From Membranipora membranacea (taxonomy: Eukaryota > Bryozoa > Gymnolaemata > Cheilostomatida > Membraniporidae), in the NCBI GenBank assembly GCA_914767715.1, contig OU612066.1, positions 29,548,283 to 29,612,282 of the forward strand: a DNA stretch of 64,000 nt, given 5' to 3'. A model generated the notes under the pieces. It was not told where the DNA came from. It ran no database searches and saw only the letters and a program-made list of their open reading frames with translations. Below are positions 3,501-64,000 of the stretch, piece by piece. Each line of letters begins with the position of its first letter. The stretch's first letter is position 1. The position numbers and the translations under genes were made by a program.

Positions 3501-6301
3501 GTCAGTCATGTCCTCATCTAACTCCAGAAATATCTGCTGACGGCCCAACATGTAAGCCATCTGCTTCTGTACCATTCTACACAGGTAAATATATTTTGAC
3601 ATTATTATATATAGGTGATACAAAATATGGCTGCCACCCAAAGCAACATTGCTTGTTCCAAAATATCAACAATACCAGATTATCCTTGATTTGACATTGA
3701 ATTGTTCTCTTCAAAATAAATGTGCCTTCACATTCTGGTTATAACCATAAACATGTATAATGAAATTCCATTTTTATAATAGATTATCGAAGCAGGTCCA
3801 AGCAGACTGAGAGACTTACTTATCAGGACATGTCTTAAATATCTCAGTGATGAGCTCAATGTCGTTCAGCTGTATAGCCAGTCTCAGAGACTCAGCATGT
3901 TTGTTAAACTTTCTGTTTATAGCCAGGCAAGTCTTTAGTAGATTTGTGTTCTCGGGATCAGGAACAAACGGTACACAACTACAAATAAATCAGAGGAATG
4001 TGTCAGTCTGTACTCTATTTACTAGCTTAAAAGCTTAGGCTAACCAATAGTGGTCTTACCAGAGCCTAGATTAAACAGCCACATGAGCTTTTAGTCTGAC
4101 TCAACTTATGAATGCCGATCATGAAGTGTCGAGGATGTGACAATCGTAATATTGACTATCTAATCAACACCAGCCTGATATGTTCTACATTATTATGAGA
4201 AGACCAAAAACATGTAAACACTCATTTATATGTTTGTTGATTAGAACTACCTGGTCAGATATAGGCAGACTCTCTGATATACATTAAGATCGACAAACTC
4301 CAGTAAAAAGTCCATATGCTCGATCTCCATAAGCAGATCACAGGCCTCAGCCTCGGTGTTGTGAGACATGAGATAAGGTACGATAAGTCGAGCTAGAGCA
4401 AGGAGTGCTTTCTTCTTCTCACCATCCTCGGCAGTGAGTTCCTGCCACTCAGCGGCGACCTCTCCTGTCAGATGACGGACGTACTCATGACCCCAGAGGT
4501 CAATATCACCTCCACCTCCTAGCAGCTTGTATTTGAGACATTCTCTGTTTGTGTCTGTGACTGTCATACCCTGAACTGACAGCACATCAGCACATGCAGT
4601 CTAAAAATGGGAGTGCATAACAAAAAATCAGCACTATAAAGTAACCACCATCTAGTAACAAACATCAGCACTATAAAGCAATACAGTCTAGTCTTATATT
4701 GTATATTGGTGAACATAACAAAATGTTAAGATAATTGATAAACTAAAAAATGCATGACGAGTATTTAACCAAACAAACCCAAGAATTTAGACCCAATGGA
4801 TGGTTTTAGCCTATGGCTTGATATTTCATTCAACATAATATGATCATGGATTCAGAAGTTAATCTCACCTTGGTGGCAGGATCTGTGATCTTTTCGTATA
4901 TTCCTTTCATGGTATCATAGTGAGGTCTCAGAAACTTGAGAGGTTTAGGTACACTAGTCATGGAGGTAGTGGCAGCCTTGATCAGATTACTCATCGTATC
5001 CAGGGCAGCTTTATAGAGCTTGGCATCACTCTCCTAAAAATAAAGTAGATAACAATTTACTTTTTACTATAATGTTGAGCACAAGTCACAGATGGTCCCA
5101 ATAAAGTATTCAGTTAATTTTATTCACATATGTAGCTAGCGGTTGAGGGAAGAGAGTGACCTCTCTCGGCTATCTTCCAGGAAACCATTAGCTTTTTTAT
5201 ATATGGCGACGTTTAAACCTGAAGGAGAACTCTATTCTCCAGGGTCTGAAATCACCAATTAAGAATTTGTACTGTTAATTAACACGTGGGTATAACTGAC
5301 TGTTAACCTAGGTCACAGGCTCACAGAGCAAAAACATCTCAATAGGGAAATCAAAGGTTACAGTAGTCCTGATGAGCGCGCATGGTGAAACATTTCCTCT
5401 TTATCACCATGACAACATCTCTGACTACATTGTGAAGTTTATGATAAACAGCAGCAGGACAGACAAGCAAATACATAGTACTTACAGTGAGCCTCTCCAC
5501 ACATAGGTTCAACTCATCTTGTAGCTGTTTGTCTTCTTCAGACTAAAACAAAAAATCATGATTGTTATCAGTGGAGTTGATTACATTCAACCACCGACCC
5601 TGTAGATCAAAGGTAACCAACAGGATGCTGCTGTCAATGAACTAAATAAACATTGCTGATGTATATCCTGGAACCCTTATAGCTGACACTGTTAACCCAA
5701 TGGCCAGAATGGGGCACTTCACATAAACTTTCAGTGTTACTGTCATAGATAGATTGATAGTGAAATGTCTTCAAAGGAAAGCTGATTTGTTGGCCTGCTG
5801 ATTTCAAAGCCCAATGCCATAGAGACTAAGAGCTAAAATCAGGAGCAAAACTATTTTTATTGACTTCCTAATTTCTTTCTATCCAGTTCATCTATTTCTA
5901 TTTGGATAGTAAATAAACAAAATGATTTGGTCTTGAGTTCACATCATGTGACTTGTATGAGAGCTAATTCAGCCCACAATTGCCATACCATTTCATTGCC
6001 CCATAATGCCCCAAGACTAGCTGTAAGCAGTCATCATAATTCCGGCTTGACACTGATTTATTGTGTTGAAAGACTTTTCATTTTCTGCTAGTCATCATCA
6101 ATCAGGATGGGTCTAACTTTGAAGGATTGAAACTCCTGTTTCATGTGCATTTCAATACAAAATAAGATATCATATGCAACCAGCAAACTACACTCAAAGA
6201 CTTACCAATTCTACTTCCTTCTCTACTTTCTTTTTTCCTTCTGGTTTGGCATCTTTCTTTTCATTTTTAGTTTCTGGAGTTTCTTTCTTGGGTTCAACCA
6301 T
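546..6301 (-). CDS. PSMD2: 26S proteasome regulatory subunit RPN1 (PSMD2), 3' partial
   Basis: RPN1 is the large non-ATPase subunit of the 19S proteasome base; it docks ubiquitin receptors, shuttle factors and UBP6. Exons read on the minus strand: 6301-6206, 5542-5486, 5033-4869, 4600-4251, 3978-3820, 3576-3432, 3156-3096, 2890-2750, 2502-2268, 1933-1642, 1255-1124, 707-546. They splice with consistent phase into 665 codons. Visible signatures are a Lys-rich N terminus, [17 protein letters not shown] (exon 3), [28 protein letters not shown] and the PC-repeat segment [20 protein letters not shown], followed by [12 protein letters not shown] and an acidic/Lys linker (exon 707-546). An in-frame TAA lies just upstream of the ATG at 6301, which supports that start. 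About one quarter of the protein (later PC repeats and C terminus) is missing at the edge. Identity is very secure; exact splice sites are inferred. Confidence 0.95.
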
Positions 6302-18346: not shown

Positions 18347-30391
<12,045 letters not shown>

Positions 30392-45500: not shown

Positions 45501-48500
45501 CCACCATAAGTAACATTTTGTATAAACCGCCTGCTAAAGAATTCACTTGACATACAAAATGCAGAGATATTCAGTCAGCAGAATCTATCTCATACATGGT
45601 GTCAACTGTGGCGGATTGAGCAATTAATTCACATATAATCTATCGTCAAAAAATCAGGGAATACTTTATTCATCAAATGACTACGGCAAAAGTATTAATT
45701 ACACAAAGTGAAGCAAAGTCCCTGACAAATGATGAACGAGACTATGTTGGAGGCGGGCTACAACTGTCATCACTGTAGTGTTAATACAAATAATGTAAGC
45801 TTTGGTGTAAACATAATTATCTGGGTATATCATATTTACCTACATACTAAGCGATGACAAATAATAATGCTGCCGTGCATCAAACAATCAAATTATTCAA
45901 AAACATCTTTTTAGGGTTGATCTGGATTCAATGTAATAGGCAGTCGATCTTGAACAGGCACCCAGTCATCTTGTCATGATGGGTAGGAAAAGTATCATAT
46001 TTAAATCTTATTGAACTATGCTATGACTAATAATAAAAGCCAAATGCAGTCTAGACAGTCAGGAACACAATTCCTTTGGATTTGATGATAATCGCTTGGT
46101 GGCCTCATTGAAAGACAGCATATTGCTCACAGAAGAAGGCTGTCTCATCTGGTGGGTGTAGCTGTGTATTGTCACATTGTTGATTATTCCAACGATAATC
46201 CGGTTTGATATTTTCATCTCGATGAGCCATCTCTATGCAGTCTTCCCCTGGTCTGTACATATTCGGTTCATCCTCGGCCCATCTGTCGATATGGATAGGA
46301 CCTGTTCGCAGACCAAACCATCTCCACTCATTCTCTACATTTTTTCCTCCGATCCAGTATCGGTTGGCGCTGTTCCAACCTACAGCAGTGTGTAGCATTT
46401 TGCTTACAATATTTTGATGAGCCCTTCCTTGAAATATTAGAGCCATTGCAAAGAAATGCCTTAAGATGAGAACAGATAGCAGTTACCCAAAAACATTGCT
46501 ATGTAAAATAAATATACATACTCTAGTACTTGAGCGCACAAATTCTAAGTCGTCTTTAGTAGTGTTTTAATTTTGTTCGACTCACCTCCATGTTTCATCT
46601 GATAAGCCAGCCACTCGATGGACTCGATAGAATCGAATGTCGCTAGATGACCTCCTTCTACTCTACAATATTCTTTGGCTGTGTCCCAGTCAATTAGCCT
46701 GGAGTGCTCTGTAAAACAGGTCTGACTGAACGGGTTCAATCTGTAGCCTTGTCTACAAACTACAATAACAAAAAATTTTCTATGAAATACCATCTTTGAA
46801 TTTATTCTGAAATATGTAAAATTACTGAGATAAAATACAAAATGAATGCAAAAAAACACCCATATTTGCTCGTGATAAAGATCTAAAGTGTCAATCACAG
46901 TTACTCACCCAACCCAAGAGGATTTGACCCGATCCTTGGAGGCGTTGCTGTTGTGTGGGCAAGTTGTGGTGATGTTATAGTCGTGTTATCAACTGATACC
47001 GTAGTTACCTGAGCCGGATCAGTGCAGCATGATACAGGAGCTGGTGTAACTTGGGTATTGAATATCAGAAGAAGGCAGACCGATAACCCAACACACGATA
47101 ACACTGTGAGCAGAGTGAGCCAGATTATAATGCAGGTGGTCTTGGATCCTTTGTTCTCCTGATTTTGTTTACCTCTGCCTTGCTTTTCTCTGATTAACAT
47201 CTGATATTGTCGAGATTGATCATTTTCTGTAACATCCGGTACAGCGTAGGAGTGTGTACTAGGCTGAAGATATACACCGCTCATATTTTTTGCATGGGTC
47301 CAAAAATTAGCGTAGAGTTAGTATGTCAATGATGTATTCAATAAGTTTGTAGTTTGATGGTTTATGACCAAGAAGGTGATGTTCCAGTTGGATTTGAATC
47401 TAATTCAAGAATACTTGAATATGGTTTCCTCCTCTTATTATATGACAAGTCAACAAGGAAGGTCAACAAAAAATGAATCACAAAACTTTATAATAGCTGC
47501 GTGAGCCGTGAGATGTGTACGCCTTAGCTCATCACTGATAGGTTGTTAATGCTGCTAAAACAGCCTAGCTGACAACCAAATAAGGCACATTGCAATTGTG
47601 CATACTTGAGCGGACATTTGTTATAATCATGTGGATTGAGTCACTTTTGAGGTTTTTCCTGGTCCATCCCTCGACATTATTATCATAGATGGTAATATGA
47701 GGAGCACAGTTGGTTTGATAAGTTTAATAATAATGACTACATATGATTAAATAATAAGGCAGCTTTCATGATGATAAGTTTCTATATCTATATCTATATC
47801 TTTTTCAGTGACACTAGTGCACCATGACCACCCTATGTTACCAGAGACTATGGATCATCGATGGTCTCTGATGTTACAAGTTCTTTAAAATCGTATCCTA
47901 TAATGCAATTTTCTCCTGAATCTTCTGTGGTTTATTTTAGCCCACAAATGATTTATATTTCAGTTCTAAACCCACATGTATTTTTGTCACTCTTTAGAGA
48001 GCAGCAGACAAGAAAAGATTTGAATATTGTGACAGGATTCCAGCTGCTCGACGGCAAACATCATCTCTTCATACTGGAGGGCCTCCGTGATCAGGCAGTG
48101 AAACACATATGGGAGTCGATCACTAAACCTAAAGAAGGTATAATCATGAATCACATTGTCAGTTTGTGACACATCGAGTGAGGCATACAATGATGTTATA
48201 TTTTAGTCATACCTGAGTGTCTATGTGTCAGCATTGGGGGGCGGGACACTCATCTAATCCACATATCTTCCTTTTGAAAAGAATCGTCCAATCATAACCC
48301 TTTATTTTGATCAATTTGAGGTACATCTCAACCTCAAATATGCACTGAAGTTGAATACATATATTGTCAAAGCTCCGATTTGGATATTGATGCATTCATT
48401 TCCTTTTTAGAACTATCAGCAAGATATATTTGGTACCATTGATCTTGTAATCGAAAATAATGTTATTTTTACACTCTCAAATTTGATCTGAAATCCTATA

Positions 48501-57318: not shown

Positions 57319-60300
57319 ATGGAGAAATTTACAGTATTTCTGGTGAGTATTTTTGCTGCATATCTTGTAGGAGTCAAGTATTTGCAGAAAAGAAAAGTTC
57401 ATTTCTTTGCTGAGGTTTAAAATTGTCTATGGCTTGCCTACATGTACACACTCTCATTACTTTATTATGTAAACTCCCGTCGTGGCTAGGTGGAATAAGC
57501 TGCTAGAATGATGTTTTCCCCAAACTACATGAATTAAGTCAACTAAACTCAAGGAAATAATATTTACTACTCTTGGGATGTGCATTTGAACTTTGGATTT
57601 GAGACATGTTAATCATGTCATCCTTTCTTGTTTTTCTCACATAACTCTTCTACCTTTTTAGCTGTGTGTAACCGCAGTGGTCACTATGACCCAGGGTACT
57701 GTTATGGAGGCATCCAAATACAAGCTGTTACATGATCTTACATCTGTAGACAGCACTCGTCTTAAACGCAGTCTCACTAATCAGATGCTAGAACAGCAAC
57801 AGGTTTGTTGCAAATATAATATGATACCTTTATCCTACCTACCAATTCTATGATTAATTCTTTAATTGTTACCATAAATATTTCTGTTAGAGTTTTGTTA
57901 GGGTCAATTTGACTTCTTGGTTTCTAGTAGTTTGAGACCTCATACTCTGCCCGGGTTACTAGTAGTGTCATTCCATGATTAACTACCTTGGTAATCGAAT
58001 GACACAGCCAGCAAACCTGGGGAGATATTGAGAACTTCATCAAGGTACCGGGTGGCATCTTTTTTAGTCACACCCTGGTCAAACCACTGCCTGCTCAGTT
58101 CTATTTATATGAAAACCTCAATAAAAACATTATAATAATAAAAAATAAAAAATAATTTTTGGAAGGGGAAGGGTAACTCTAAAAGCGGAAGCTCAATAAA
58201 TGCAACAAGTATGAATGAAACTACACACTGAAGACATTGAAGGATCTGGTTTTTATTCATATTTTTGGACAAGTGACAGCAAAATGAAACTACTGCAGAT
58301 GTGTATTGAGTATTGAGGATGAGTATTGCTGAAGGAAAAATTTGCCGTTGCATGCTTGAAATAGCCGTTACTTTATCTAATCTTCAACCTCAGCTAAACA
58401 AATTTTAGTGCTAGCTAACATTAAGTAATTAGCCTAACTAAATACTAGCCAATATTTTCTCCAGTAGGGTAACATCTGATCAAAATTGAGCTTGAGATAC
58501 CACATGGTATCTGAATCAGAAATGAGAAGATTTACCCTTCCTCTAGTCAATTTGGCTCAGTGGTAAGAGCATCTGCCACTAAACCAGCCGGTAGGAGGTC
58601 TCGACTCCCAACCAGTACCAATAAGCGATGTGCTTAACGCTGGGTTACGGCTATCAGTGGTTGAAGATTGCATGCAGTGCAAGTCATTGTCAACACTTAC
58701 AGACAGTAACCATTATTGTTACTATATTAAATAGGGTATAATAATGATGAACTTCCTACTGTTGCATTATGGGTAAGTAAATAACAATATTCCTGTCTCT
58801 CTTCTCTGCAGGTGTACTCATACCAGGAGGAGGTACTACAAGGAACCTCCCACTTCTCCATGCTCTTCTACGCTTATAGTAACCCTTCTGATCAAACAGC
58901 TGGAGGCAGGTCATGTGACCAAGGAAGCAATGACTACTGTGATGTCGTATTTGATATCTGCGTCAGCAATCAGGGATACAGGTTTGTGTCATTGTCAACA
59001 AAAACTTCTGAGCTCTTGGTAATGATCCCTTATGAGCACTATATCTGGCACTTGACAATACTATTTGTATGTATTGGTTTTGAACGAATATGCTGTTATA
59101 TCAGATGATCCAGGGGCTTCATTTATGTACACACTGATGCACCTTGTTGAAAGCGCTAGCCAGCCAAATTGCAATTGGGTTAAGGTTGGGGAAGCCTAAA
59201 AACATCTAAGTCAGCAATAATTTGATTAGGAAAACGGATGTAAGTAACGAAATTGTGTGTATGACTGTATGATAATAACAATTGTGCAATGTTTTCAGTG
59301 ACTGTTCACTCTATCGACGTGTGACAGGAGTTGCTGGAACAGGCCCAGATACTATCTTGTTCAGTACACTAATGGGCGGAGTAGATAACCCCATAGGCGT
59401 TAATCTGACAACCTGGAAGGTGAGATTAAACCGTTCTTAGTGTGATCATTTGTCCCAAAGTGGGTTTAAATGTTTTTTATTTCTTGTATCTCAAATCCTG
59501 TATTTGGGATGCTAGATCAACTATTGAGCTAATTTGTGATTAGTTGTTCCTGTAGGACATCAAATATATTTAAAATTGAAACAATAACTTGTTTTGTATA
59601 TTTGTTTAGGGTGTGTCAATGTTGGTCAGAGTGTTCGATAACGACGGCTTTGCTGTAAACGGAAGCCAAGTTTTTAGTAAGACTGAGCTGATAGATCAGT
59701 TCTATCTTGTTATAACTAACCATGGTATGGACGGAGTCATGGAACTAACAGGACTACTGCCAACACAGTCCAAGTAAGTTCTGATTGGTTGATTTCATTT
59801 GCTTAAAACATGACATGAGAGCCTGTATGCGCCTCAAAGGCTGGTCTTGTCTTTGTAATACGGTAGTTGTTATACACAAGGGGTACATCTCAAACTCGAC
59901 TGGTATTATAACCCATTTTGGATTTACGTATAGTTCGGCATTGGGGCTGGTACTCCGATACTCTATTATTACACCATTCTTTCAAGACTATGTAATCATG
60001 ATATAACATTTATTGTATACCGTCAATAAAGCGGTTTATCAGCAGCTATTTCAGGGTTAAACCTTTCAGGTGTGTCTCAATATGAAATGAGTACAATGCT
60101 GCTGAATCGTTACAGGTTGACTATGCAAGTGACAAGTGGCTGCCAAACTGACTTCTTTGGCTCGTCATGTACAATATATTGTGACTCATCTGCTGTTGCC
60201 TATTCGTGCCTCCCTGATGGGTCTAGACTTTGTAGCGGAGGTAAGTTTGGATCGTCTTCCAATAAAAGAAAACTTCTATTACGACATTGTTGTTGTGTAT

Positions 60301-63300
60301 AAGCCTTTTTGGGTGCTGTTAACTTAAATTTTAATTTGTTTCTGATATATAACTGACCAAGTTATCACTTTGATTGCTACATTCTTTCAGTATCATTATT
60401 GATATTTTGACACGATTGTTGATCGTATTAATTCGTTAAAACAATTTTGTTTGTGTTTGATTTCATAGGTATAGATTGCCGGCCACCAATTATTCCGATG
60501 ACAACAACAACCTTCTTCCCTCCAACAACATGTCGTCCTGTTTGCAACTCTCCTGTACCAAGAGGCTGTGACAAACCCGATTACTTACTATGTGATCCAG
60601 CTGGTAGTAATTGTAATGTGCCTGGTGCAAAGAATTTATGTCCACGTGCTTGTGGATTTTGCTCAACATCCACTTCAACGACTACTACAACAACGTCAAC
60701 CACAACCACTACAACAACTACAACTACACCAACCACCACAACGACCCCAACTACGACAACCACAACTCCCACAACCACTACAACCACTCCAGCTACAACT
60801 ACCACAACTCCAACAACAACACCCACAACTACCAAAACTACCACAACTACTACATCTGTCCCTTCAACAACATCAACACCTACCACCACAACAACAACAC
60901 CAACAACCACAACCCCAACAACCACAACTCCAACAACCACAACCACAACACCGACAACCACAACACCAACAACCACAACACCGACAACCACAACACCAAC
61001 AACCACAACACCAACAACCACAACAACAACACCAACAACCACTACAACAACCCCTACAACAACAACAACGACCCCTACAACCACTTCAACAACAACCACC
61101 CCAACAACGACGACAACAACGCCTACAACCACCACCACCCCAACCACAACAACAACTACCCAAACCCCAACCACTACAGCTATGGCACCAATACCAACAT
61201 GTTTCACCACATGTGCTCCTGTTGTGCAATCATGCAATTACAAGGATGGAATTCTTTGTGAACCAAAGCATTGTAGAAACCCTCAGACTGCAAAGTATTG
61301 CGCAGACCTCTGTCAGCTGTGCACGACGACAACCACTACCACCACCCCAATACCTACATCTACAACTACACCAACGTCAACCTCAACTACTTCTACTACT
61401 TCAACAACAACCACTCCCGCAACTACAACAACTCCCACAACAACTACCACTACAACACCAACAACAACTACCACTCCTACAACTACCACCACCACCCCTA
61501 CAACTACTACAACAACTCCAACAACAACCACCCCTACAACTACCACAAAGCCAACAACAACTACTACAACAACTCCTACAACAACAACCACCCCTACTAC
61601 CACAACAACAACAACAACAACACCTTCAACAACAACAACACCAACAACTACCACAAATCCCCCAACAACAACCACTCAACCAACCTCAACAGTTTCACCT
61701 TCAACTAAGGCAGCACCGGTCTGCTCCTTGCAGAGCGGATACACAAATGTCTATGTAGAATTTGTGAGCTATACCAACCCTAGTGATAGAAAGTCCACGG
61801 GCCCCCTCTGTGATCGAGATGGATCATCGTGTGATATTGCCATAGAGATATGTTTGCAACCTCTGAGCCTCGGATTGAACAAGTATGTAATCCCTCTTAG
61901 TCAAACATATTCTCCCCTGCAAAGAGCGCTTGCGTTTGATCTGACATATGCGTAATGAGTAATTGGAAAACCAAACTAAGAAAAACGCTGTGCTATCTAC
62001 CATCATTGTTTGCCAACAGATCAGAGATTGTAGTGACAATGATCATATGTCTCGAATGCTTTATAAATTTCATAAAATGCATTATTTTTGTAACATCTAT
62101 TTTGTAGTCAAGAAGGACAAGCTAACTGCACGTACTTCTATGACTTCACTGGGGTTATCGGATCTACAACAAACCTAACTTTCGGACCTGATATAGATGG
62201 ACGTACAAACCCAATAAGGATAGACTTGGGCGCTGAAATTTGGGAAGTAAGAATACAATCATTGTTTCCTGTGTATATTCTTTGTAACAAATTTTTGGAT
62301 TAAATCACATAGAATGAATGTTGTGTCTAATCAAAAGCTGACCAATCAGATGAATCCTTCTGAAAATTGCATTATGTGAAACCTGCTTTTTAATGATTAC
62401 TAATATGTTCTTTGACTGACTTTTAGCTTCTAGCTTTAGACTTCTAGCTTTTAGATATATGCTCTGCTATATTGCTTCATACAGGGAGCTAGCGTGACAC
62501 TGACTATGTGGGACAGTGATGTGGATGTTAGAAGTCCTATTCCATTTGATCTGATTGATGAGTTTGTTTTCAACTTTACTGAGCCGGCTGGTGCAGAGTA
62601 TAAAACCTTTGATATACCGGGTGTTCGACCAGATCCAAAATCAAAGTAAGAATAATTATTCAGAGAAGCTCTTTAGCTCTTGTACGACATTATTTCTTCT
62701 GTTCATATTATTGATGGTGCCAACTTGCTGTGGATGTGACTTATGTAATCATTTTTCACTCTGTGGCAAAGTTTGCGTACAGGATTTAGATTCATTTTGT
62801 GAGGACAATTTTTAGGTGCCAGAAGCAGCTGATTGAGATTTTGGAATACGCAGCCCTTCAATATTCATGGCCTCTCAACTTAAACATAGCAAAGTTGATG
62901 GGAATGAACAGTTTTGTTTGCATAGCATAGATTTAATGCAGCCATCTATTTATAGCCTTGTTTTGAGAGTGAAGGCTGACTGTCCACTGCCCACTACTAC
63001 TCCTACAACTACAACACCAACTACAACCACTACACCAACCACCACAACAAGCACATCAACAACACCAACGACAACAGCCTCTACAACTACAACAACGCCC
63101 ACAACCACCACATCAACTACAACAACTCCGACTACCACTACAACTACCACACCCACTACAACTACAACTCCAACCACTACAACCACTACACCAACTACAA
63201 CAACCACATCCACAACAAAAACAACAACCACCTCCACCACCACAACACCAACAACAACATCAACCACCATTTTGCCCACTACAGAGCCACTCTCTACAAT

Positions 63301-63965
63301 CCCAACTACAACAGTAAGTGGTAAAAATAAGATGGTTAGTGTTGACTATTCAAAGACCCAAATTGACTGAGTTTGGTGTCGGAAGAGCTTAAATGAAAAT
63401 CATAAAATTCTGGAGAAAGTTAAAATTATACAGAAAATTCAAATTTAATTTTACAGCCGCAGCCTTGTCCTCTGGATGTACAAGGATATGCCGGGTATAC
63501 AAGATTTCTAATAAAACTGGTAAGATTTGAGAATCCTACTGACCTCAAAGCTACAGGAGTTCTGTGTGATTTCTTCTCTGGAGATCTGTGTGACATATAT
63601 GTAGAGATATGTGTCAGTCAGCTGGGTACTGAGTAAGTACGATAGTCATCAGCAAACTATCTAAGTATAGGCGGTTTGGTGTCTCTTTCTTGCACAAAGT
63701 GAATTCATATCCTTTTTATTCAAAGGATTCTAACATATCGATAATGTTATTGATTGTCACCATTTCTGAATTGCTGCAAAAGTCATCATCATTTAGCCAG
63801 TTCTTTGTATTGTTTCTCAGCGACTGCGGATTGCTCAATTTACAGTCATCTGTAATTGCCGCTAGCGACGACATCACATTTGGTAACTCTTTCATCAACA
63901 AGCTGGATCAGAACTCCGTTGTGTCTAATCCCGTTCCTGTTGACCTTGGTCTCCAGAAGTGGCAA
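57319..63965 (+). CDS. secreted DSL/MNNL/ShKT-domain mucin (Notch-ligand-like head), 3' partial
   Basis: Exons: 57319-57342, 57662-57802, 58812-58981, 59299-59419, 59610-59773, 60116-60240, 60469-61882, 62108-62246, 62485-62645, 62968-63313, 63457-63632, 63821-63965, then past the edge; 1042 codons so far with closing phases. Order: signal peptide (1-20); first MNNL/C2-like domain (about 60-206: FSMLFYAYSNPSDQ, CDVVFDICVS, NPIGVNL); DSL domain (216-252) with six Cys, CQTDFFGSSCTIYC; ShKT-like module ending CPRACGFC; Thr-rich mucin tract of Pro-Thr repeats; second ShKT-like module ending CADLCQLC; Thr-rich tract; second MNNL-like domain (CDIAIEICLQ, NPIRIDL); Thr-rich tract; third MNNL-like domain (CDIYVEICVS, NPVPVDL). 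No EGF repeat or membrane segment is visible before the edge. Delta/Jagged proteins share the MNNL-DSL head, but this arrangement is not one I know. The acceptor at 62967 (GAG) is the weakest splice call. Confidence 0.85.
57949..58022. repeat. hairpin repeat with GAATGACAC...CAGCAAACCTGGG arms
   Basis: CCCGGGTTACTAGTAGTGTCATTC (left, about 57949-57972) is an imperfect inverted copy of GAATGACACAGCCAGCAAACCTGGG (right, about 57997-58021). A third related copy lies at 53879-53902. It is in intron 2 of the DSL gene. Confidence 0.6.
58545..58700 (+). mobile_element. tRNA-derived SINE-like element in DSL-gene intron
   Basis: The A-box TGGCTCAGTGG (58553-58563) and B-box-like GGTCTCGACTCCC (58597-58609) are 44 nt apart, as in a tRNA. 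The acceptor stem does not pair by eye and the downstream body is unlike a tRNA, so I call it a tRNA-headed SINE. The 3' end is not defined. Confidence 0.6.
60663..61187 (+). repeat. Thr-rich mucin tract 1 (ACN triplet repeat)
   Basis: About 170 codons are mostly ACA/ACC/ACT (Thr) with regular CCA/CCC (Pro), giving PTTTT-type repeats within exon 60469-61882. The DNA is a long degenerate triplet repeat, so all frames and the antisense poly-Val frame are open. It would be a dense O-glycosylation stalk. Confidence 0.9.
61325..61708 (+). repeat. Thr-rich mucin tract 2
   Basis: A second ACN/CCN triplet array of about 125 codons between the second ShKT-like module and the second MNNL-like domain, in the same exon as tract 1. 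Confidence 0.9.
62990..63313 (+). repeat. Thr-rich mucin tract 3
   Basis: A third ACN/CCN array occupies nearly all of exon 62968-63313 and separates the second and third MNNL-like domains. Confidence 0.88.
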
Positions 63966-64000
63966 GTAAGTCGTCTTTTATTATTATTTTATTATTTATT

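Follow-up and report, generated by a model that had tools for sequence, protein, structure and literature searches.

A gene for a predicted membrane mucin with repeated Notch-ligand MNNL domains in the bryozoan Membranipora membranacea

The locus and its gene model

The stretch of DNA analysed here, called the window throughout, comprises 64,000 nt of the genome of the bryozoan Membranipora membranacea (contig OU612066.1, or C2, positions 29548283-29612282), and its right end holds the beginning of a forward-strand gene that joins the head of a Notch ligand to Thr-rich mucin tracts and to further copies of the N-terminal MNNL domain, a C2 domain. Positions are in window numbering unless a contig is named, and the genome searched comprised 339.34 Mb in 18 contigs, 39.5 Mb of them in OU612066.1. 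A first-pass annotation had described a signal peptide, an MNNL domain and a six-Cys DSL domain, followed by ShKT-like modules, Thr-rich tracts and another two MNNL domains. All of these are present in frame with GT-AG introns, the DSL having its six Cys when exon 7 is spliced to exon 6; the limits given, 57319 and 63965, fall on the ATG that opens exon 1 and on the last base of exon 12. When the adjoining 39 kb downstream of the window was added and exons were chained by frame, splice signals and phase, the gene was found to span 26.4 kb (57319-83719, +), with its right end about 20 kb past the window edge. The resulting model has 43 exons and encodes 3,099 amino acids without a single in-frame stop, with GT-AG borders at 42 of 42 introns and a median intron of 306 bp.

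The first half of the encoded protein reads signal peptide-MNNL1-DSL1-ShKT1-mucin-ShKT2-mucin-MNNL2-mucin-MNNL3-mucin-MNNL4-DSL2-mucin-MNNL5-mucin-ShKT3-mucin, and the second MNNL6-mucin-ShKT4-mucin-MNNL7-mucin-MNNL8-mucin-MNNL9-mucin-MNNL10-mucin-ShKT5-ShKT6-EGF-transmembrane helix-tail, which amounts to ten MNNL, two DSL, six ShKT-like modules, one EGF and one transmembrane helix. Repetition of the MNNL domain had been rightly noted from the window, where three units are visible, the number rising to ten in the full model, and the earlier remark that no EGF had appeared so far holds within the window, the single one coming shortly before the gene ends. The head and the repeats belong to a single gene, as had been proposed, because exon 7 (60469-61882, +), 1,414 bases in one open frame, bridges DSL1 to MNNL2 by itself: from the sixth Cys of DSL1 it runs on through two ShKT-like modules, each followed by a mucin tract, into the first third of MNNL2. 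The end of MNNL6, ShKT4, a mucin tract and the start of MNNL7 likewise share exon 24, and separate genes for head and repeats are ruled out by these two exons. Moreover, introns recur within the MNNL units, in phase 2 after part a (10/10), in phase 0 after part b (9/10) and in phase 2 after part c (9/10); MNNL9 has no intron between b and c and has one inside c, parts c and d of MNNL6 share an exon, and MNNL4 has an extra intron in part a.

Inside the window, exon 1 (57319-57342, +) opens the signal peptide with MEKFTVFL, as judged from sequence and splice sites, and exon 2 (57662-57802, +) completes it and adds a linker with a furin-like RLKR at residues 41-44. MNNL1 (58812-59773, +) is made of exons 3-5 (58812-58981, 59299-59419 and 59610-59773) and was recognised by our own profiles, which include this unit, with no match to Pfam MNNL. 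Exon 6 (60116-60240, +) contributes the final MNNL strand and Cys 1-5 of DSL1, matched by our own profiles and by PF01414 (19.1 bits, below cut-off). The two ShKT-like modules of exon 7 (60543-60662 and 61212-61322, both +) were found with our own profile and have no Pfam ShK match, whereas mucin tracts 1 and 2 (60663-61193 and 61323-61717, both +) were delimited by composition and sequence. MNNL2 (61740-62645, +), within exons 7, 8 and 9, is matched by our own profile and by PF07657 (E 1.1e-4, 22.2 bits, against a cut-off of 22.5), and its final strand lies with mucin tract 3 in exon 10 (62956-63313, +), whose boundaries were set by hand: splice chaining gave 62890-63334, which was implausible, and the adopted limits come from comparison with the sister repeats. 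Exons 11 and 12 (63457-63965, +) hold the first two of the three main exons of MNNL3, identified by our own profiles, and the remaining letters (63966-64000, +) are intron, with the rest of MNNL3 onward beyond the window.

Two observations concern the introns themselves. Intron 2 contains, at about 58540-58640, a tRNA-like stretch with the look of A and B boxes by eye, perhaps a short interspersed element, in which ARAGORN found no tRNA. The intron before MNNL10 holds a long inverted repeat (by eye; about 3990-4345 of region L004) resembling a foldback element.

Relationship to Notch ligands

Pieces of the model, including eight of the ten MNNL repeats (all except MNNL8 and MNNL9), were searched against Pfam at E<=1. 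Five of these eight repeats matched MNNL (PF07657), the best at 23.7 bits being the only one above the cut-off of 22.5, and no match was obtained for MNNL1, MNNL3 or MNNL4; both DSL domains matched PF01414 below its cut-off of 24.2. A few unrelated families also appeared, all below their own cut-offs, and neither VWC nor SEA was among the matches of the pieces scanned. In searches of the whole genome, PF07657 at E<=1 found two places, both of them Deltas, and PF01414 found two, a Delta on contig C6 and a paralogue of the present gene (paralogue B, described below), so that the MNNL and DSL exons of the window itself were missed by both.

Comparison of profiles with the PDB was more informative. 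The five best matches of a profile of the ten repeats were all Notch ligands (E 5.7e-4 to 0.24), namely Jagged-1 twice, Jagged-2 once, and a Delta-like protein twice, both entries of which we take to be rat Dll4; the other seven of its 12 matches at E<=10, among them SRP14, Indian hedgehog and ISG15, begin at E 0.82. A DSL profile of five rows, drawn from the two giant genes and from an MNNL-DSL pair upstream of paralogue B and, unlike its first version, free of canonical Deltas, gave seven matches at E<=1, every one a Notch ligand (E 6.4e-4 to 0.38). The MNNL and DSL assignments made at first sight are thus upheld by the PDB profiles, with Pfam near or below its cut-offs.

DSL1 has its six Cys spread over exons 6 and 7, the sixth being the first Cys of exon 7, and FFG in the place of YYG, while DSL2 is degenerate, with Trp at the position of Cys5. 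In both, the loop between Cys3 and Cys4 (RPR[DN]DxFGH in Dll1, Serrate and Jagged-2) is shortened. This shortening is not decisive against contact with Notch, because an EGF-rich Delta of the same genome likewise lacks the full loop; bilaterian Notch-binding residues are reported not to be conserved in Amphimedon Deltas either (PMC3482393). Tandem EGFs directly after the DSL are absent, and ShKT-like modules and mucin take their place.

Canonical parts of the pathway are also encoded in this genome. The C6 Delta has MNNL (103.6 bits), DSL (61.3 bits), EGFs, a transmembrane helix and a long tail; the EGF-rich Delta (region C, 10.80-10.83 Mb of OU612066.1) includes one open EGF-rich reading frame of 958 aa; and a Notch receptor (C7:15.84-15.87 Mb) has EGFs, three LNR, NOD, NODP, an ankyrin exon and a WFPEGF motif, which we take to be Notch-like. 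Since two EGF-bearing Deltas and Notch are present, the mucin gene is an addition to the canonical parts and not a replacement of them. With its NOD and NODP, this receptor differs from the Notch of the sponges as described in PMC6040629.

In the EGF-rich Delta, too, the unspliced sequence shows by eye a phase-2 intron behind part a, a phase-0 intron behind part b and a phase-1 intron between Cys5 and Cys6 of the DSL, and the C6 Delta shares, again by eye, the phase-0 intron after part b. Our own repeat profiles match the EGF-rich Delta (a 2.5e-3, b 2.8e-6, DSL 1.8e-9), and at E<0.01 the MNNL exon profiles have no match to the MNNL of the C6 Delta. Because both introns and profiles agree with the EGF-rich Delta, the mucin gene would descend from a Delta like that of region C.

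The conserved Asp of the MNNL units

The Asp that aligns with the Jag1 Asp before Ser-Ser-Asn, in an alignment that is weak (E 0.019), is found in nine of the ten repeats of this gene and in 14 of the 15 of paralogue B, with the motif in its DxD form in 9/10 and 13/15, respectively; a second Asp is invariant in all ten repeats here. The same motif occurs in the EGF-rich Delta (YDKD) and is lacking in the C6 Delta (YHES). This Jag1 Asp is taken as D140, since Ser141 follows D140 in PMC3888931, where Asp72 and Asp140 of Jag1 are reported to bind Ca2+ and where Ca2+-dependent binding to liposomes is described for the C2 domains of Jag1, Dll1 and fly Serrate. In this line, deletion of a C2 loop in fly Delta is reported to weaken lipid binding and signalling and to leave Notch binding unaffected (PMC8490980). 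By analogy with these ligands, the MNNL units may bind Ca2+ and lipid.

Mucin stalks, ShKT-like modules and membrane end

Thr accounts for 852 of the 3,099 residues; tracts rich in Thr/Pro/Ser/Gln, defined by a 15-of-20 window rule, take up 1,071. The ShKT-like modules are at most candidate members of the ShKT family: Pfam ShK matched one of the six pieces, at cut-off, and neither of two in the paralogue, and their profile gave five weak matches in the PDB (E 0.34-0.86). Four of these bear the names Aurelin, AcK1, ShTK domain protein and OspTx2b, of which those not named as ShTK domain are presumably ShKT proteins as well. Of the Pfam checks that had been proposed at the outset, MNNL gave one match above cut-off, DSL two below it and ShK one at it.

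Near the far end, a six-Cys EGF pattern extends over exons 41 and 42 (Pfam EGF_2, 14.7 bits, below the cut-off of 22.1). One transmembrane helix follows, with a hydropathy peak from residue 3071 and type I orientation, and after it the tail consists of the nine residues STARQRRKN, with one Lys, so that a multi-Lys intracellular tail of the Delta/Jagged kind is absent from the gene model. Given this helix and tail at the end of the model, we predict a protein anchored in the membrane and not, as first suggested, a secreted or matrix one. Long Thr/Ser/Pro tracts and a transmembrane helix are features of membrane mucins, the glycosylation itself being a prediction.

Paralogues, selection and age of the array

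With one MNNL unit as query, at least 61 places were found in the genome at E<=1, all on OU612066.1, in this gene, in paralogue B, in a third locus and in a lone exon at 30.34 Mb. Paralogue B lies on the minus strand at 30.50-30.53 Mb, 0.9 Mb from the present gene, and has 15 MNNL, two DSL and six ShKT units as counted with our own profiles. Its head has the same order (MNNL-DSL-ShKT-mucin-ShKT-mucin-MNNL), Pfam matched two of four of its MNNL units, both below cut-off, and its DSL1 at 27.2 bits, above cut-off, and a transmembrane-like exon ending SRKR* is found downstream. Just upstream of its head, an extra MNNL-DSL pair (region coordinates 46.6-44.5 kb, -) may be a gene of its own or the N-terminal part of B.

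In the part of the third locus that was read (30.44-30.45 Mb), unit 14 of B is closely copied twice, and close copies of units 15 and 3 are present too. In eight pairs of MNNL exons between B and this locus (366 codons) there are 26.5 synonymous and 7.5 non-synonymous differences, which gives a synonymous divergence (dS) of 0.122, a non-synonymous divergence (dN) of 0.009 and a dN/dS of 0.07; three older pairs (145 codons) have a dN/dS of 0.24. These relatives are thus under purifying selection. At position 30447741 of the contig, a signal-peptide-like, Thr-rich open reading frame stands just before an MNNL, with no DSL match between them, and may belong to a separate mucin-MNNL gene. Elsewhere in the third locus a reverse-transcriptase-like open reading frame of 341 aa (by eye; about 4058-5080 of region L045) is inserted between MNNL exons.

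Two trees were built of the MNNL units, labelled A in this gene and B in the paralogue. The first, of 26 rows, had no starred fork; the second, of 24 rows, omitted the C6 Delta, for its very long branch, and the fragment B05, and had starred forks at three of 21 (A01-B01, A03-B12 and A08-B09), two of them flagged as long-branch joins. The pairing A08-B09 is consistent with an Asp-to-His replacement that both units share. A single clade of the ten units of this gene was rejected by the AU (approximately unbiased) test on 24 rows (p 0.0099), the clade having been named after the first tree was known, and bootstrap values were unsettled and support modest. Since this clade is rejected, at least part of the MNNL array seems to predate the divergence of this gene from the paralogue.

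Surroundings of the gene

On the minus strand of the window, about 10 kb from the mucin gene, the interval 46105-47317 holds an exon matching the C-type lectin family PF00059 and, close by, an open reading frame with a transmembrane-like hydrophobic stretch (by eye); a focal adhesion kinase-like gene, with a tyrosine kinase exon and a focal-adhesion-targeting domain, lies at 18347-21855. Between 44166 and 44716 there is a 16-bp tandem repeat of 34 copies with 95% matches, and Rfam gave no match in the window.

Proposed function and rival explanations

The reading that we put forward, at even chances, is that of a Delta-derived type I membrane mucin working as a long, multivalent contact molecule. 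An EGF-type Delta gene would have lost its EGF array and, almost wholly, its intracellular tail, while its N-terminal C2 unit was multiplied and mounted on Thr-rich, presumably O-glycosylated stalks together with small disulphide modules of ShKT-like type. Many weak, Ca2+-dependent C2 contacts with the membranes of neighbouring cells (or their glycans), or with the other paralogue, could then add up to reach and avidity; it is the row of Asp-bearing C2 units on stalks that suggests such avidity-based contact. The head may still touch Notch, and would then hold it or compete for it, and not activate it, lacking Delta-like endocytosis. Ubiquitin-driven endocytosis of bilaterian ligands is served by Lys and PDZ motifs that their tails commonly bear (PMC3482393), and a Delta-like pull on Notch is unlikely here because the tail has nine residues and one Lys. 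Signalling of the Delta kind would be lost, since both the EGF array and the signalling tail are missing.

Several points weigh against this reading. The splice model was built by hand from genomic DNA alone, and transcript, protein and binding are all predictions from the gene sequence. The selection estimates compare B with the third locus; they describe relatives, not the window's own copy. The comparison with Jag1 covers the D140 position, one of the two Ca2+ ligands, and units A08 and B09 have His for the first Asp; lipid binding by these C2 units would be an extrapolation from vertebrate and fly ligands. Finally, DSL1 retains its six cysteines, which would be odd were contact with Notch irrelevant.

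This last point belongs to an explanation that we consider unlikely, in which the protein is a Notch regulator: its MNNL-DSL head would bind Notch, either on its own cell or on a neighbouring one, and, with no tail for E3-driven endocytosis, would act as a decoy or cis-inhibitor. The order signal peptide-MNNL-DSL, the six Cys of DSL1 with FFG for YYG and a Notch receptor in the same genome agree with it, but both DSL domains have a shortened Cys3-Cys4 loop (as has the EGF-rich Delta), Cys5 has been lost from DSL2 and ten MNNL units would be left unexplained. A purely structural mucin of mucus or glycocalyx, with MNNL and ShKT units as mere spacers or cross-linkers, would account for the abundance of Thr and for the third of the protein lying in Thr/Pro/Ser/Gln-rich tracts, and is nonetheless doubtful in view of the constraint on MNNL exons in the relatives, the conserved Asp motif and the membrane anchor.

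Equally doubtful, or slightly more so, is a family of variable receptors for allorecognition or immunity, clustered on one contig and with repeats diversifying for contact between self and non-self. Two giants and a recently duplicated third locus on the same contig, with repeat numbers of 10 and 15, are what it would predict, yet the recently duplicated copies show strong purifying selection in place of a diversifying one. Very improbable is an artefact, either neighbouring genes joined by the model or a decaying pseudogene: the model is hand-made, long repeats are prone to misassembly and whole-genome Pfam searches miss the window's own exons, but 3,099 codons free of stops, the full set of GT-AG introns, their recurring phases, a diverged paralogue with the same head order and the low dN/dS in relatives are difficult to reconcile with it. 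Altogether, among the options raised by the first-pass annotation, the evidence leans towards an adhesion or recognition protein made from ligand parts.

Comparison with known systems

In common with Delta-type ligands (Dll1/Dll4, Drosophila Delta and sponge AmqDelta1-5), the gene encodes a signal peptide, MNNL/C2, DSL and a transmembrane helix; in place of their EGF array it has one membrane-proximal EGF, ten MNNL, two DSL, mucin, ShKT-like modules and a nine-residue tail. AmqDelta4 is also devoid of EGF repeats, and the account of it drawn on here from PMC3482393 describes neither repeated MNNL nor mucin. With Jagged/Serrate the gene shares the MNNL-DSL head and the Asp at the Ca2+ position of the Jag1 C2, whereas their EGF array is absent and no VWC match was found in the pieces scanned. 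Long Thr-rich tracts and a transmembrane helix are common to this protein and to the transmembrane mucins rich in Pro, Thr and Ser, some of which also have a membrane-proximal EGF, but its globular units are MNNL, DSL and ShKT-like, with no SEA in those same pieces. A predicted protein of the choanoflagellate Salpingoeca dolichothecata, from a partly assembled contig, combines MNNL and DSL without a transmembrane helix, and a repeated MNNL or mucin array goes unmentioned in the portion of PMC6040629 concerned.

In accordance with the first-pass annotation, the model architecture and the PDB profiles describe a Notch-ligand head and a repeated MNNL, with mucin and ShKT-like modules standing where the EGF array would be. 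Neither repeated MNNL nor such an architecture was found in the literature searched, mostly at the level of titles and abstracts, open-access and with few subscription journals. The gene is filed here as a variant of the DSL ligands with the presumed mode of work of a membrane mucin or adhesin, in which two features of a working ligand fail, the tandem EGFs after the DSL and the multi-Lys tail. A bolder and more tentative proposal, which we hold to be somewhat improbable, would make the protein the first of a class of receptors or adhesins on the cell surface, as a Delta turned mucin whose extracellular tandem of Ca2+-binding C2 domains would clasp membranes, or one another, multivalently and with no role in Notch signalling.

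If this bolder proposal is true, the C2 domain of Notch ligands would be a stand-alone contact module, separable from signalling. In ordinary ligands this domain binds both lipid and Notch, activities that are difficult to tease apart; a natural protein in which C2 is multiplied and the EGF array and tail are gone would make its role testable on its own. The gene is also a clear candidate for the conversion of a core developmental ligand into a mucin, beside canonical Deltas and Notch.

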